From IMG/VR virus record IMGVR_UViG_3300042922_000643, positions 186,001 to 250,000 of that record: a stretch of 64,000 nucleotides of DNA, one strand, 5' to 3'. A program made the translations under genes and the position numbers. Numbering within the stretch: the stretch's first letter is position 1; each line of letters begins with the position of its first letter. Below the pieces are notes generated by a model. The model searched no databases, was not told where the DNA came from, and worked only from the letters and a program-made list of their open reading frames with translations. Positions 11,800 to 63,750 of the stretch are shown here, piece by piece. Source of the stretch: a virus.

Positions 11800-12171
11800 A
11801 TGAAATGGCTGGAAGTGTATATGCAGGGGGAATTGCGGTATCAGGCACCGATTGTGGTCTTAACGAAGATTTATGATCGTGAAACGGGAGAGGGGTATAT
11901 TGCTTATCTCTCCGAGGAATCCTTTGAGGGATTGAAACATGCGGTTCGTAGTTGCGAATCGACTTGGAGTTTCACGTATAGTTCTGTGGCTGACTTTGAG
12001 ACCCTGGTCTATGCGGCGACAGATTCGGTGAATAAGCTGCTGAAAAGCGCAAGGCATGGCTGGTGTCACCTACAGAATGCCTCGGACAAGAGGTTCGGGG
12101 TATCTTATGTGGTCGTGGACATCAATAATAGCGTGGCGGTGTCGTACCTGAGCGATATGGAGGACGAATAG
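11800..12171 (+). CDS. small cassette protein with acidic C-terminal signature, 123 aa
   Basis: Start chosen at ATG 11800, about 9 nt after GAGGAAAGG. The product (MKWLEVYMQGELRYQAPIVV) is a predicted alpha/beta protein ending SVAVSYLSDMEDE, a variant of the shared C-terminal signature of this window. First gene of the GC-richer cassette. Function unknown. Confidence 0.7.
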   Translation: MKWLEVYMQGELRYQAPIVVLTKIYDRETGEGYIAYLSEESFEGLKHAVRSCESTWSFTYSSVADFETLVYAATDSVNKLLKSARHGWCHLQNASDKRFGVSYVVVDINNSVAVSYLSDMEDE

Positions 12172-53528: not shown

Positions 53529-54368
53529 ATAATCATCTTCCTCTTTTACGTAACCTGAGCTAGCACTTTGATGCTGCTCAGCTTGAAGGATATAACGTTT
53601 ATACAGTGTTTTCGCTATAGACCGTTGACGCCTTAGCTGCTGAGGTTATATGCGATGTACGGCACTCGAAGACCTTGCATCCTTCAAGCTGAGCGAAGAA
53701 GATTATACGACGTGCTGAAGAGTAGCCATATCCGACGCCTGAGCGAACAGGGGCTAGGCTTTGAAATCCCCTGACTCCTAAGACATTAGCGTCCGAATTC
53801 TTCTCCCCAGCTTGAAGAGTATAAGTGGTAGTAGGCCTGGAAGCAGCCATCTTAAGAGTGGGACAGCGGCTATAACTTGCTCCGTGACACTGGGCTAACT
53901 CGGGTAGCGGATAAAAGCATTTTATAGAGAGGAAATAAGGAGGCACCCCGTAACTGGTAAGGCCGACCTTTCCCTTTAGCGTAATAGCACACCATTTATA
54001 CTTTTCAAGCTGTTTGGGGAACAGCAATCGTCTATTTCCAGAAAATCAGCCTCTATCATGAGGGAGGAGAGAAATCTCCTCCACAGCTTGAAGCTCCCAA
54101 GTTAAATAAAATAGTCGTTCAAATCGACGGCGTGGGTTATCCTCGCCAGCCATTGGAGGCACTTGGGAGTTACAAGCTGTGGGAACACAGCAGCAGGAAG
54201 ATGTGAGCAACAGGGTTCTAGCCAGCTGACCTGGTTAGACGCGTATCGGCGGTGGTTATCCAGCGTGCGAGACACAACCAAACCAACTTGACATTGGTGT
54301 TACCTTAGGCAGGTACAAGAACCAACGTATAAGCGAATAACGGTTGACACCTTACGATAGTCACATCT
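53529..54368 (+). ncRNA. giant multi-hairpin non-coding RNA candidate, about 840 nt
   Basis: No credible ORF. Long helices in order: ATAATCATCTTC (53529) with GAAGAAGATTAT (53695); GCTCAGCTTGAAGGAT (53576-53591) with its perfect complement (53679-53694). Then CAGCTTGAAGAGTATAA (53808) with TTATACTTTTCAAGCTG (53996-54012), and CCACAGCTTGAAGCTCCC (54081) with GGGAGTTACAAGCTGTGG (54165-54182). Finally AGATGTGA (54199) with TCACATCT (54361). Three helices share the word CAGCTTGAA. Size, ornateness and proximity to tRNA-like genes recall the GOLLD/ROOL classes of large phage RNAs; no sequence identity is claimed. Confidence 0.65.
53695..53803 (+). ncRNA. UUAUACG-CGAA hairpin RNA, copy 2 (inside the giant RNA)
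   Basis: GAAGAA (53695-53700) pairs with TTCTTC (53798-53803). The junction is TTATACG (53703-53709) and CCGAAT (53793-53798). The 5' arm is the same segment that can pair upstream with ATCATCTTC, giving two exclusive folds. Confidence 0.5.
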
Positions 54369-54443
54369 AACATACTCCTTTGGATATTTCCTTTCGGAAA
54401 TTCGGAAAAGTCTCTGCTTCCTGCTTTATTTTAATATTCTCTA

Positions 54444-54469
54444 GGGGGACACATGGTGTGTCCTCTTTT
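54444..54469 (+). terminator. Rho-independent terminator
   Basis: GGGGACAC-ATG-GTGTGTCC followed by TCTTTT, 75 nt after the last helix of the giant RNA. Confidence 0.8.
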
Positions 54470-54494: not shown

Positions 54495-54890
54495 ATGAAT
54501 TACCTTGATCCACGAGAAGGAAAAGAAATCACAGGTAGTACGGGGGAAATCCGCGTCAGACTCGTTGGTGGATCATTTCATGAATCTGCCTTTGCTACTG
54601 TTAAAGAGGGGGACGAAGTTACCCTTCAAAAAGAACCCAAAAATAAATATGACAGATATGCTATTGTAGTGCTCTCTGAAAATAACCGTGTTTTGGGTTA
54701 TATTGCCAATAGAGTAGAAACTATTGGGAGAAACAAAGCAACAAATTCCGCAGCGGATGTATATAGACATATCAACGATAGAACATCAGCTATCATAATT
54801 GATAAGAGTCCAAGCTCTGCCGTACTTTTGATTAATGCTTCGAATGAAGTTTTTTTAAATAGATTAAAGGAGGAGAAGTTCGATGATTAA
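54495..54890 (+). CDS. stand-alone HIRAN domain protein, 131 aa
   Basis: Start at ATG 54495 behind AAGGCGGTG; the frame upstream lies in the terminator. Residues 18-75 match the HIRAN domain: VRLVGGSFHESAFATVKEGD, VTLQKEPKNKYDRYAIVVLS, NRVLGYIAN. HIRAN domains recognise 3' ends of single-stranded DNA in HLTF/Rad5-like remodelers and also occur alone in bacteria and phages. Likely role: sensing stalled forks or processed DNA ends. Overlaps the next gene by 8 nt. Confidence 0.86.
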   Translation: MNYLDPREGKEITGSTGEIRVRLVGGSFHESAFATVKEGDEVTLQKEPKNKYDRYAIVVLSENNRVLGYIANRVETIGRNKATNSAADVYRHINDRTSAIIIDKSPSSAVLLINASNEVFLNRLKEEKFDD

Positions 54891-55472: not shown

Positions 55473-55612
55473 AGTAAAGTCACAATAGGATTTATACGCT
55501 TCGATATAGTCAAGACCCGTAGTCTATTACTGGGTTGAAGCCACGTAACCTTCCATCGGAAACGTGGCTGTCTATAAATCTGCCGAAGATCCTATTGTGA
55601 CTTTACTTTATA
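55468..55612 (+). ncRNA. UUAUACG-CGAA hairpin RNA, copy 3
   Basis: A perfect 24-bp helix: 55468-55491 (TATAAAGTAAAGTCACAATA and on) with 55589-55612. It opens into TTATACG (55492-55498) and CCGAAG (55583-55588). Inner hairpins are ACCC...GGGT and GCCACG/CGTGGC. It ends 17 nt before the RNA-repair gene start, so it may control it or be processed by RNase III. Confidence 0.75.
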
Positions 55613-55629
55613 ATAAGGTGGGAACATTT

Positions 55630-57789
55630 ATGAGAACGTTAGTCCTTACTCGTGGTATAATGGCTTCTTCAAAATCAACATGGATTGCTGAAAATGGTCT
55701 TGCACCTTTTACTTTATCTAGTGATAACTTGCGTCTACTCCATTCTGCTCCACAGCTTCAAGAAGATGGCAAGCAGGTAATAGCGGGATCGCAAGAAGGT
55801 AAGATCTGGAAACTTTTATTTGAAGTTTTGGAGCGACGTATGCAAAACGGCGATTTTACCGTCATTGATGCAACACATATTACTTCGAGTTCCATTTCTG
55901 AGTATCGTGAACTGGCTAATAAATATCGTTATCGCGTGTTTGTAGTGGATTTTACTAATGTTCCTTTGGAAATAGCTTTAGAGCGGAATAAAAATCGTGA
56001 AGAATATAAGTATGTTCCAGAACATAAGATTGAAATAGCTTATGCTAAGCTTTCAGAAAATCATGTGCCTTCTTATGCGAAAGTTATTAAACCAGAAGAA
56101 TTCTGGGATCATGTTTCATATACAAAAATTGATTACAGCTCTTATCGCAAAATTCATCATATCGGGGATGTTCATGGATGCTACAGTGCATTAATGACTT
56201 ACCTTTCAGGCGAAATGAAGGAAGACGAGTTGTATATTTTTGTTGGTGATTATCTAGACCGCGGCATTCAGAACCGCGAAGTTTTAGAATTCCTCATTCA
56301 GATTAAAGACCTTCCAAATGTTATTCTTCTTGAAGGTAATCATGAAACTCATCTTCGCAAATGGTCAATGGATGAAACCGTTAAAAGTTTAGCATTCAAC
56401 CACTATACCGAAAAAGAGATTCATGATGTTAATAAGTCCGCTGTTCGTGAACTGTGCAGAAAGTTCAGACAGGTTTGTTATTATGAATATTACGGCAAAA
56501 CAGTGCTCGTCACTCATGGAGGCTTATCCTGCATTCCAAACGAACTTGCTTTGATCTCGACTTCTCAATTTATTAAAGGAGTAGGAAATTATGAAGTTGA
56601 TATTGATGCTATTTTCTCGGCTTCTGAACAAGATGGAACGTACCAGGTCCATGGTCATCGCAACATCTTCAGACTGCCTATGCAAGCCGCTGAGCGTTCT
56701 TTTAACCTGGAGGGTAGAGTTGAATCAGGAGGAGACTTAAGGGCTCTTACACTAACTCCTGAGGGGTTTCAAGAGCATTGTATCCAGAATCATGTTTTTA
56801 CAACAGAACATTCTCCAATGCCTCCCGTTGTAGGTTCCAAAACAACTACAGACAATTTCATTGAATACCTTCAGTCACACAAAATGGTTAAAGAAACACA
56901 GATAACTGATCATATTTCATCTTTTAACTTTACACGTAAAGCATTCAATAATGGCGTTTGGGATACGCTTAACATCAAGGCTCGCGGCCTTTTTGTGAAT
57001 AAGCATACTCGAAAGATCGTTAGCCGATCTTATGATAAGTTTTTTAATATTGACGAAGTTCCAGCTACAAAGATGGGAACATTAGCCAATACCCTGGAAT
57101 TTCCTGTGATTTTGTCAGAAAAACCGAATGGATACCTAGGTATTATCGGGTATGATGAGGAGACAGATGAACTGATCTACTCTTCCAAGTCTGAAACTCG
57201 TGGTACTTATGCGGTATCATTCAGAAAACTTTTCGAAGAAAAAGTTCCTGTTGAAATACGTGCTTGGCTTAAAGGATATCTTTACGGAAATGACGTGTCG
57301 ATAACTTTTGAGGTTATTCTTCCACAAGAAGATCCACACATCATAGAATATAAAGAGAATACTTTGATCTTACTCGATATTATCCAGCGAAATGTTCAGT
57401 TCCAAAAGAGATCTTATTCCGAGGTTGTTGAGCTCGCAATGAATCTTCTTCTTCCATATCGTAAAATCAAATATGTCTTCCATAACTGGTTAAGTTTCTA
57501 TCACTGGTATCAAAACGCATCTCAAGATTATTCTGTTAAAGAAGAAGGGTATGTCCTTGAAGATAATTCAGGTTTTATGACAAAGATAAAATTACCGTAC
57601 TATCTTTTCTGGAAGCAAATGCGTACAGCAAAATTCCAGGTGAAGATGGAGGGCTATATGCTTCCTCAGTGGTTGCCGCCAATTCCTGACGATCTTAAAA
57701 ATTTCGTTGGGTGGGCTAAACAGCAAGATCAGGAGTATTTGAAACGCGTGGATGTTATCCAGTTGCGTACAGATTACGAGGGCTCTTAA
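55630..57789 (+). CDS. trifunctional RNA repair enzyme: 5' kinase, phosphatase and RNA ligase, 719 aa
   Basis: Start at ATG 55630 (AATAAGGTGGG upstream); a longer frame runs through the RNA hairpin. Residues 1-165 are a P-loop polynucleotide kinase, with an unusual loop RGIMASSKSTW in place of G-x-x-G-x-G-K-S/T. Residues 175-390 are a calcineurin-type phosphatase: HHIGDVHGCY, FVGDYLDRG, LLEGNHETH, VTHGGLSC, VHGHRN. Residues 440-719 are an ATP-dependent RNA ligase: FNxxARGLF-like start (IKARGLFVNKHTRKIV), KFFN, nucleotidyl Lys498 in VILSEKPNGYLG. The order matches bacterial Pnkp, the ligase part is T4 Rnl1/tRNA-ligase-like. Heals and seals broken RNA, e.g. tRNAs cut by host anticodon nucleases. 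Confidence 0.9.
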   Translation: MRTLVLTRGIMASSKSTWIAENGLAPFTLSSDNLRLLHSAPQLQEDGKQVIAGSQEGKIWKLLFEVLERRMQNGDFTVIDATHITSSSISEYRELANKYRYRVFVVDFTNVPLEIALERNKNREEYKYVPEHKIEIAYAKLSENHVPSYAKVIKPEEFWDHVSYTKIDYSSYRKIHHIGDVHGCYSALMTYLSGEMKEDELYIFVGDYLDRGIQNREVLEFLIQIKDLPNVILLEGNHETHLRKWSMDETVKSLAFNHYTEKEIHDVNKSAVRELCRKFRQVCYYEYYGKTVLVTHGGLSCIPNELALISTSQFIKGVGNYEVDIDAIFSASEQDGTYQVHGHRNIFRLPMQAAERSFNLEGRVESGGDLRALTLTPEGFQEHCIQNHVFTTEHSPMPPVVGSKTTTDNFIEYLQSHKMVKETQITDHISSFNFTRKAFNNGVWDTLNIKARGLFVNKHTRKIVSRSYDKFFNIDEVPATKMGTLANTLEFPVILSEKPNGYLGIIGYDEETDELIYSSKSETRGTYAVSFRKLFEEKVPVEIRAWLKGYLYGNDVSITFEVILPQEDPHIIEYKENTLILLDIIQRNVQFQKRSYSEVVELAMNLLLPYRKIKYVFHNWLSFYHWYQNASQDYSVKEEGYVLEDNSGFMTKIKLPYYLFWKQMRTAKFQVKMEGYMLPQWLPPIPDDLKNFVGWAKQQDQEYLKRVDVIQLRTDYEGS

Positions 57790-58721: not shown

Positions 58722-58795
58722 ACAAGATTAACTCAGTTGGTAGAGTAGCCGCCATTATTGGAGGTCAGTCGCAGGTTCAAGTCCTGCATCTTGAA
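58722..58795 (+). tRNA. tRNA-like gene 1, isotype uncertain
   Basis: Acceptor ACAAGAT/ATCTTGA (6 of 7 pairs), D arm ACTC-AGTTGGTA-GAGT and T arm GCAGG-TTCAAGT-CCTGC are canonical. The anticodon arm is odd: CCGCC/GGAGG with one mismatch leaves a 6-nt loop ATTATT, or an 8-nt loop if the top pair is open. No clear anticodon can be read. CCA is not encoded. Confidence 0.55.
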
Positions 58796-58821: not shown

Positions 58822-58893
58822 GCAGGTATAGCTCAGAGGTAGAGCGGGGCCAGGTTGCTGGTCATGTCGCGGGTTCGATCCCCGTTATCCGTG
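58822..58893 (+). tRNA. tRNA-like gene 2, isotype uncertain
   Basis: Acceptor GCAGGTA/TATCCGT (one mismatch), D arm GCTC-AGAGGTA-GAGC, T arm GCGGG-TTCGATC-CCCGT. The anticodon stem GGCCA/TGGTC leaves a 6-nt loop GGTTGC, the same irregularity as its neighbour. CCA not encoded. Confidence 0.55.
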
Positions 58894-62348: not shown

Positions 62349-62818
62349 TAATAGATGAACGGAAGTGTTCATGAGCGCCCTTGGCGAGCAATCGCCATTG
62401 AATAACTAGGTGAATTTAGGGGAGTCCTGGAGCAACAGTCGTGAGACAGATGTATGGTGACCCTAAGCGAAGTTTTGTGTAGATGGTGGCGGAATAGGTA
62501 GACGATAGGTCGGCTTAGTAGGTTTGGGTTGTGGTTCGAATCCACGATGCGCAATACGCGTAGACGCCGTGACGGTAAAAACCTGGCTATGTGAGGTGCA
62601 AATCCTCACCCACTATACAAAAAACGTTCAACGACTATTCTTGAAATGGCCATGAGAATTGGCAACAGAAGTAGGGCCTATGCTTATAAAGATAGGCGGG
62701 TGAGAGTCCCTTAATCCGAAGCGCCTAGCATCCTCAGAACTTTGGGGATGGTGATATAGTCTACTCCCTCTCTGCTCGACAGAGAATTCAAAATATGGGG
62801 AAACCCAGGGTGAGATGG
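62349..62818 (+). ncRNA. group I intron in dnaE, 470 nt
   Basis: Interrupts the frame exactly between GYA and FNKSHS; removing 62349-62818 restores TTT-AAC-AAA. The 5' exon ends in T and the intron ends in G, as required. P1: GCGT (62345-62348) with GCGC (62375-62378), giving the U-G splice pair. Conserved R element GTTCAACGACTA (62626-62637) and S element GATATAGTC (62753-62761) form P7 (GACTA/TAGTC). No homing endonuclease ORF, so probably immobile or mobilised in trans. Splicing regulates replicase synthesis. Confidence 0.9.
62477..62620 (+). other. tRNA-Leu-like insertion in the intron P6 region
   Basis: GTGTAG...CTATAC closes a 140-nt extension. Inside are TGGCGGAATAGGTAGACG (typical leucine tRNA D arm), a T arm TTGTGG-TTCGAAT-CCACGA and a second T-arm-like GTGAGG-TGCAAAT-CCTCAC. 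GTAGACG occurs twice as a direct repeat. Could be a decayed tRNA captured by the intron. Confidence 0.4.
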
Positions 62819-63750
62819 TTAACAAATCCCACAGTGTAGCATATGCTATCGTCTGCTACATGACCGCTTACTTTAAAACATATTACCCTTTGGAGTTTAT
62901 GGCGGCGTTGTTAACAGTATTTGGTAGTAATGTTAAGAAAGCAGTCCCTTATATCGCTGAATGCAAACGTATGGGATTCGAAGTATTGCCACCCGATGTA
63001 AACAAATCGGGATACGGTTTCGTAATCGAAGGCACAAATCTTCGTTTTGGCTTGAACAGCTTAAAAGGTCTTGGTGAAGTTGCGCTTGAACGCATTATAG
63101 AAGAGCGTCCTTTTGTAGATCTGGAAGATGCGATCAAACGAGTTCCGAAGAAGTTCTTGAACAAACGCGTCGTCGATGTGCTTAGCCTTTGCGGAGCCTT
63201 TGATGATCTTGCGAATGAAAAGAATCGGATGAAAATCGTTGAGAAAGCATATAAACTTCGTGGAGAGAAGAAATTTGATCTCACAAGTTTTATTGAAAAC
63301 TTCGATCAAAAGGCTAAGCTTGATCATGAGAAAGCTATTCTAGGCGTCTACGTCAGTGGTCACCCACTAGATGGCTACGCTACCGCTGTCGGGCCTTGGC
63401 TTGAAAAGTCTGAAGGGGATCGATTCGATACCGCGGGAATTATTGCCGAATTCAACGTGATTAAAACCAAGAAAGGTGATGAAATGGCCTTTGTAGATTT
63501 GGATACTATCGAAGGTCTGCAAACTATTGTCATCTTCCCTCAGCAGTATTCGTCCATTCGTGGCCAGCTTGTTGAGGAACTGATCATGAAGATTACGGTT
63601 CAAGTCGAATACAATGCTGTGCGCGGCGAACGTAATTACATCGCCAAGAAGATCACGATTCCGAAGAAGATCAATAAGGGACTTTATATCCCGAAAGCTG
63701 CTTTGGAAGAAGAAGACACTACCAGTGAATATGAACAATGGGCACAATAG
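62819..63750 (+). CDS. dnaE: DNA polymerase III alpha subunit (DnaE-type), exon 2
   Basis: Continues from the spliced F codon: NKSHSVAYAIVCYMTAYF and YYPLEFMAALLT, then the tandem helix-hairpin-helix region (LRFGLNSLKGLGEVALERII) and a C-terminal OB-fold region (IIAEFNVIKTKKGDEMAFVD). A false start (ATG 62815) exists inside the intron, but without splicing it would lack the polymerase active site. Ends in an acidic EEEDTTSEYEQWAQ. Confidence 0.92.

Follow-up and report, generated by a model that had tools for sequence, protein, structure and literature searches.

Which kind of RNA is encoded in a gene-free stretch of almost 1 kb in the genome of a large virus, and what could it be used for? 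The stretch lies in a 64,000-nt window (positions 186,001 to 250,000) of the 251,543-base virus record IMGVR_UViG_3300042922_000643, and all window coordinates refer to these 64 kb. A sequence-only reading had described here a giant non-coding RNA of about 840 nt with at least five long nested helices, three of which begin with the same word, framed by a promoter (52887) and a terminator (54444), and had likened it to the GOLLD and ROOL RNAs, which form multimeric cages. Therefore, it was first analyzed whether the unit exists as described. Between the CDS ending at 53515 and the next one at about 54495, about 930 nt are free of same-strand genes and the only long ORF is a 142-aa antisense one. 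The 965-nt unit folds at -337 kcal/mol against a shuffled mean of -281 kcal/mol (0 of 20 shuffles reached this value). The word CAGCTTGAA occurs five times in the 64 kb when both strands are counted, all within this interval, while 0.71 occurrences are expected and 0 of 100 shuffles reach five. Three arms framed by CAGCTTGAA / T(T/A)CAAGCTG pair as described, the last one closing with TACAAGCTG (Table 1). The promoter at 52887 and the terminator are present as consensus matches, but the counts found (3 and 1) do not exceed those in shuffled sequences (4.4 and 1.7). Moreover, the promoter at 52887 would serve the preceding gene, and a match directly upstream of the RNA fits better. Thus, the observation of a large, strongly folded non-coding unit was confirmed, although the 23S rRNA-like domain in its middle arm had been missed.

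Table 1. Coordinates of the features of the non-coding unit and its surroundings in the window
Position	Strand	Feature	Supporting observation
52967..53515		gene upstream of the RNA	no relatives in viral contigs, no Pfam family
53490..53518	+	promoter-like site TTGACG-17-TAATAT directly upstream of the RNA	consensus match only, not above shuffle expectation
53516..54442	+	non-coding RNA body, from the stop codon of the upstream gene to the terminator; ends approximate	fold z -6.9; no same-strand gene
53576..53694	+	arm 1, CAGCUUGAAGGAU...AUCCUUCAAGCUG	fold z -6.1; no relatives found
53808..54012	+	arm 2, GAC-mimic arm; outer helix 53808-53829 with 53991-54012	outer helix -29.4 kcal/mol, z -7.4
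53826..53859	+	5' half of the 23S GAC mimic (E. coli 1054-1090: H43, then G1087-U1090)	G at 1067; 3-nt deletion within 1081-1086
53860..53978	+	exchangeable insert between 1090 and 1091	closed by GGG/CCC
53942..53964	+	conserved insert submodule GGCACCCCGUAACUGGUAAGGCC	subfamily I
53979..53992	+	3' half of the GAC mimic (1091-1104)	H44 loop with A1095, ...GCACAC
54063..54082	+	hairpin GGAGGAGAGAAAUCUCCUCC between arms 2 and 3
54081..54182	+	arm 3, CACAGCUUGAAGCUCCCAAGU...ACUUGGGAGUUACAAGCUGUG	fold z -8.1; no relatives found
54192..54425	+	3' domain, predicted multi-branched	no relatives found
54443..54467	+	intrinsic terminator-like hairpin with T run	consensus match, not above shuffle expectation
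54495..54887		small HIRAN-domain protein directly after the terminator
55564..57786		fusion of AAA_33 kinase, calcineurin-like phosphoesterase and T4-type RNA ligase (Pnkp-like RNA repair protein)	1.1 kb downstream of the RNA
58722..58795 and 58822..58893		two low-scoring tRNA genes, one with an undetermined anticodon	41 and 37 bits
59735..62374 and 62815..63750		DNA polymerase III alpha gene, apparently split
62357..62786		group I intron that appears to split the DNA polymerase III alpha gene	RF00028, 50.1 bits

In order to assign the unit to a known family, it was compared with all families of Rfam 15 by a covariance model search (cmscan), a comparison with GOLLD and ROOL having been named beforehand as a check of the sequence-only reading. 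No family matched the unit at gathering threshold, and for GOLLD (RF02032, model of the conserved 3' region) and ROOL there was no match up to E = 5 on the interval. A search of the whole 251-kb record with the GOLLD model gave no hit either, although no control genome was hit in that search. The interpretation is therefore partly supported: a large structured non-coding RNA is supported, whereas membership of, or likeness to, GOLLD/ROOL is not. That the RNA forms a cage of this type and carries its 23S-like arm only incidentally appears very unlikely. Size, phage origin, the linkage to tRNA genes in the family described below and the repeated arms with interchangeable ends are in favor of it, but most relatives are only 90-360 nt long and consist of the 23S-like module alone, so that this module is the conserved part. 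The shared CAGCTTGAA ends would allow arm exchange or intermolecular pairing, but nothing like it was seen in relatives, and self-assembly through the repeated arms remains a suggestion from the sequence. GOLLD and ROOL are likewise large phage RNAs frequently located beside tRNA genes, and GOLLD has been reported to bind ribosomes in pull-downs (PMC12286853), but no sequence or model match was found and the text consulted describes no comparable mimic in them.

The identity of the middle arm emerged from blastn searches against phage records, which gave two short blocks, both within this arm and both intergenic in unrelated phages of Aeromonas and Pseudomonas. Block A (GGCCTGGAAGCAGCCATC..GAGTGGG) and block B (CCCTTTAGCGTAATAGCACACC) align base for base with E. 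coli 23S rRNA positions 1054-1104 and together represent the two halves of H43/H44, the GTPase-associated centre (GAC; E. coli 1051-1108, Rfam RF02541), which is the roughly 58-nt domain binding ribosomal protein L11 (uL11) and thiostrepton. Three pattern scans of IMG/VR and further blastn searches revealed the same bipartite, unannotated element in about 45 IMG/VR contigs, about 20 named phages and one plasmid; since several IMG/VR contigs are near-duplicates, independent elements number about 50. The named phages include pf16, Aeromonas 4_4572, Astolliot, Milchi, UNO-G1W1, GAP32, CBB, BF, several Erwinia SNUABM phages, Kaldavass, XbC2, XacN1, XaC1, Acinetobacter ME3 and Vibrio 2.275.O. The plasmid is plasmid 1 of Aromatoleum aromaticum EbN1, in which the mimic lies in the middle of a non-coding region of about 1.5 kb with several long arms (locus L073, 2160-3700; L numbers denote the loci compared), an architecture that recalls the window RNA. 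A further scan with a pattern made only from the insert fetched 12 new contigs, all of which had both GAC halves, independently confirming that the halves belong together. In E. coli genomes no subfamily-I insert (see below) was found.

A chance resemblance, contamination with host 23S rRNA or a recently captured, decaying rRNA fragment had to be considered, since genuine 23S rRNA sequence does exist in phage records, e.g., in Paenibacillus phage Pd_22F (L051, MZ092003.1) and in many Listeria, Staphylococcus and Salmonella phage records, where it is probably host contamination; these records were not counted as carrying the element. A single hit in genome contigs, locus L046 of a Rubrivivax MAG, was also rejected because the 3' half is absent. 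However, all family members share phage-specific differences from 23S rRNA (the insert at 1090/1091 and GCACAC instead of GCUCAC) and covary, and named isolates from many genera carry the element between their own genes. Moreover, the window contains no rRNA and its intergenic unit stands alone. This alternative is therefore contradicted by the data.

Selection on the fold was analyzed with 35 ungapped elements and a pairing scheme taken from 23S rRNA, which was not fitted to these sequences except for the GGG/CCC insert stem and the length of the outer helix. Of all cells 93.7% were paired, against 74.6% for shuffled and 37-58% for slid partners, and the covariation score was 0.487 against 0.135, with 0 of 500 shuffles as high. 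Besides the outer helix, pair 1058-1080 covaries, being G-C in 16, U-A in 10, A-U in 7 and G-U in 2 elements, as does the small tertiary pair 1082-1086, being U-A in 24, C-G in 8 and A-U in 2. U1060 with A1088 as well as A1084, A1085, G1071 and A1073 are found in 35 of 35 elements, A1095 in 33 and A1067 in 31. The base triple 1072.1092-1099 is C.C-G in 50 modules and U.U-A in 3 (ME3 and the first modules of Astolliot and Milchi), and never mixed; the same isosteric change occurs in 23S phylogeny. A covariance model built from phage copies alone recovered E. coli 23S rRNA at 1048-1114 with 51.1 bits and nothing else in that molecule, and, conversely, the Rfam model LSU_rRNA_bacteria hit a phage element at H43/H44 (E = 4e-8). 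These data also bear on the possibility that the RNA is bait for a translational GTPase such as EF-G rather than for L11, as proposed for 4.5S RNA, which shares the decanucleotide GAAGCAGCCA with 23S 1068-1077. This stretch is among the best-kept ones of the family and is intact in the window. However, selection acts on the whole H43/H44 fold including the H44 pairs and the 1072.1092-1099 triple that 4.5S RNA lacks, positions 1068 and 1070 vary in 7 and 9 of 35 elements, and EF-G would normally also need the sarcin-ricin loop, so that this explanation is considered unlikely, although it remains open.

The phage form shares with the ribosomal GAC the sequence, the hairpins, the tertiary pairs (1060-1088, 1082-1086, 1072.1092-1099 and 1071.1091-1100) and, in most copies, the A1067/A1095 loops, but it stands outside any rRNA and differs in several respects. 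The closing helix is variable in sequence but paired, and does not resemble H42. An exchangeable arm of about 30-330 nt, closed by GGG/CCC, is inserted between 1090 and 1091, and in loci L029, L031, L035 and L040 there is also one between H43 and H44. Position 1101 is A instead of U while 1090 is U, so the ribosomal A-U is replaced by U-A; the insert in H44 and this change could alter the L11 site, although U1090-A1101 would restore a pair. Two kinds of insert recur: subfamily I, to which the window belongs, with GGCACCCCG-NNNN-YGGUAAGGCC, in which GGC/GCC swaps with GUC/GAC, and subfamily II with CCCUUAGAG before the 3' half (GAP32, CBB, XacN1 and ME3). Pseudomonas phages Astolliot and Milchi carry two modules in tandem, a second, degenerate one lying upstream of the main one (L003 2060-2380 and L052 2166-2480) with an insert resembling that of the jumbo-phage subfamily. 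The window copy has both GAC halves on one strand, the GGG/CCC-closed insert and the paired outer helix by which the family is defined here, and retains H43, the pairs 1091-1100 and 1092-1099, the residues 1060 and 1088 and the triple 1072.1092-1099. It is, however, divergent, having G at 1067 and UUAA instead of seven nucleotides at 1080-1086, so its tertiary fold may be weakened, and the model scores for its halves are low (18.9 and 20.8 bits).

Regarding the genomic context, every element with a tRNA gene in its locus has the nearest one on the same strand; 21 of 44 elements have a same-strand tRNA gene within 1 kb and 14 within 8-31 nt, sometimes with tRNAs on both sides. In phage pf16 the element lies between tRNA-Asn and tRNA-Pro. 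The tRNA association put forward by the sequence-only reading is thus real for the family, but in the window the nearest tRNA is 4.7 kb away, beyond the kinase-phosphatase-RNA ligase fusion, whereas other phages of the family have full tRNA arrays. None of 25 records searched encodes uL11, while all 14 control genomes do, so a partner would be the host's. Neighborhoods rich in translation rescue functions could indicate a decoy that protects phage translation from something that attacks or binds the ribosomal GAC during infection, such as a host defence enzyme or a thiopeptide: in addition to the tRNA arrays and the fusion gene of the window, RNA_lig_T4_1 is found in 8 of 25 records and an annotated 2'-5' RNA ligase lies beside the XacN1 element. 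However, no defence system cleaving the GAC is known to us, and the window copy and a few others have G at 1067, the thiostrepton residue. This reading is likewise open but improbable.

Taken together, the unit is best explained, with fairly good confidence, as a non-coding RNA whose middle arm is a structural mimic of the GAC, and as one divergent member of a widespread, apparently undescribed RNA family of large phages and at least one plasmid, in which a constant GAC platform sits on a variable outer helix and carries an exchangeable arm. The analysis demonstrates the sequence identity with 23S rRNA, the covariation of secondary and tertiary pairs of the ribosomal fold and the placement in intergenic space, often inside tRNA operons. 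In contrast, it is inferred, without transcript or protein-binding data, that the RNA is transcribed and matured together with phage tRNAs, folds like the GAC and binds host uL11. The isolated rRNA domain folds and binds uL11, and in the ribosome it is contacted by elongation factors and RelA. In this view, binding of host uL11 would be the likeliest action: the RNA would act in trans as a decoy or docking platform that withdraws L11, or factors recognizing L11-GAC (RelA, translational GTPases), from the host ribosome, or it would recruit L11 to a phage RNP whose other part is the variable arm, which would supply a second function such as localization, multimerization or binding of another partner. 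The preferred purpose, with low certainty, is the dampening of ribosome-dependent stress signaling and the retuning of translation during infection; since (p)ppGpp has opposite effects on different phages in P. putida (PMC12814882), such a benefit need not be universal. It is a tentative possibility that large phages across many host genera carry a dedicated trans-acting RNA which captures host uL11, and with it RelA or translational GTPases, thereby switching off ribosome-dependent (p)ppGpp signaling and reprogramming translation, which would represent a new, RNA-based class of host takeover or counter-defence.

We found no described RNA family in which a mobile element carries the L11/GTPase centre of the ribosome as a free-standing, conserved, modular RNA, and literature searches returned no report of a phage GAC mimic, although their incomplete coverage makes this only weak evidence of novelty and undescribed here means not found. 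The finding provides a concrete, testable molecular target (uL11, the stalk base, RelA, EF-G) for a class of large phage RNAs whose functions are unknown, explains what sits in intergenic gaps of phage tRNA arrays in isolates such as pf16 and in gaps of jumbo phages such as GAP32 and CBB, and suggests that phages manipulate the ribosome by rRNA mimicry. The principle of copying a ribosomal-protein site into another RNA is shared with ribosomal-protein leader RNAs (e.g., uL1 sites; PMC10931766), but the phage elements are not located in front of ribosomal-protein genes, are carried by mobile elements and are apparently trans-acting, and no leader mimicking H43/H44 is known to us. The T4 RNAs C and D are also stable RNAs within a phage tRNA operon, and the ICP1 RNA of ~800 nt and the phage K lncRNAs (PMC7567579, PMC9241854) are abundant large phage RNAs of unknown function; none of them contains the GAC blocks, and they were rejected as relatives.

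The remainder of the window RNA is not explained by the mimic. When arms 1 and 3 and the 3' domain were considered as further rRNA mimics, blastn against E. coli 16S and 23S rRNA gave only chance-level matches besides the two GAC blocks. The nearest named relative by DNA polymerase, Bacillus phage KLEB27-3 (57% identity), has no copy of the element. Finally, in a 30-tRNA array that also holds the element (L013), ARAGORN called a tRNA with a CUA anticodon (Pyl-type) at 11864-11940, which points to possible stop-codon suppression.
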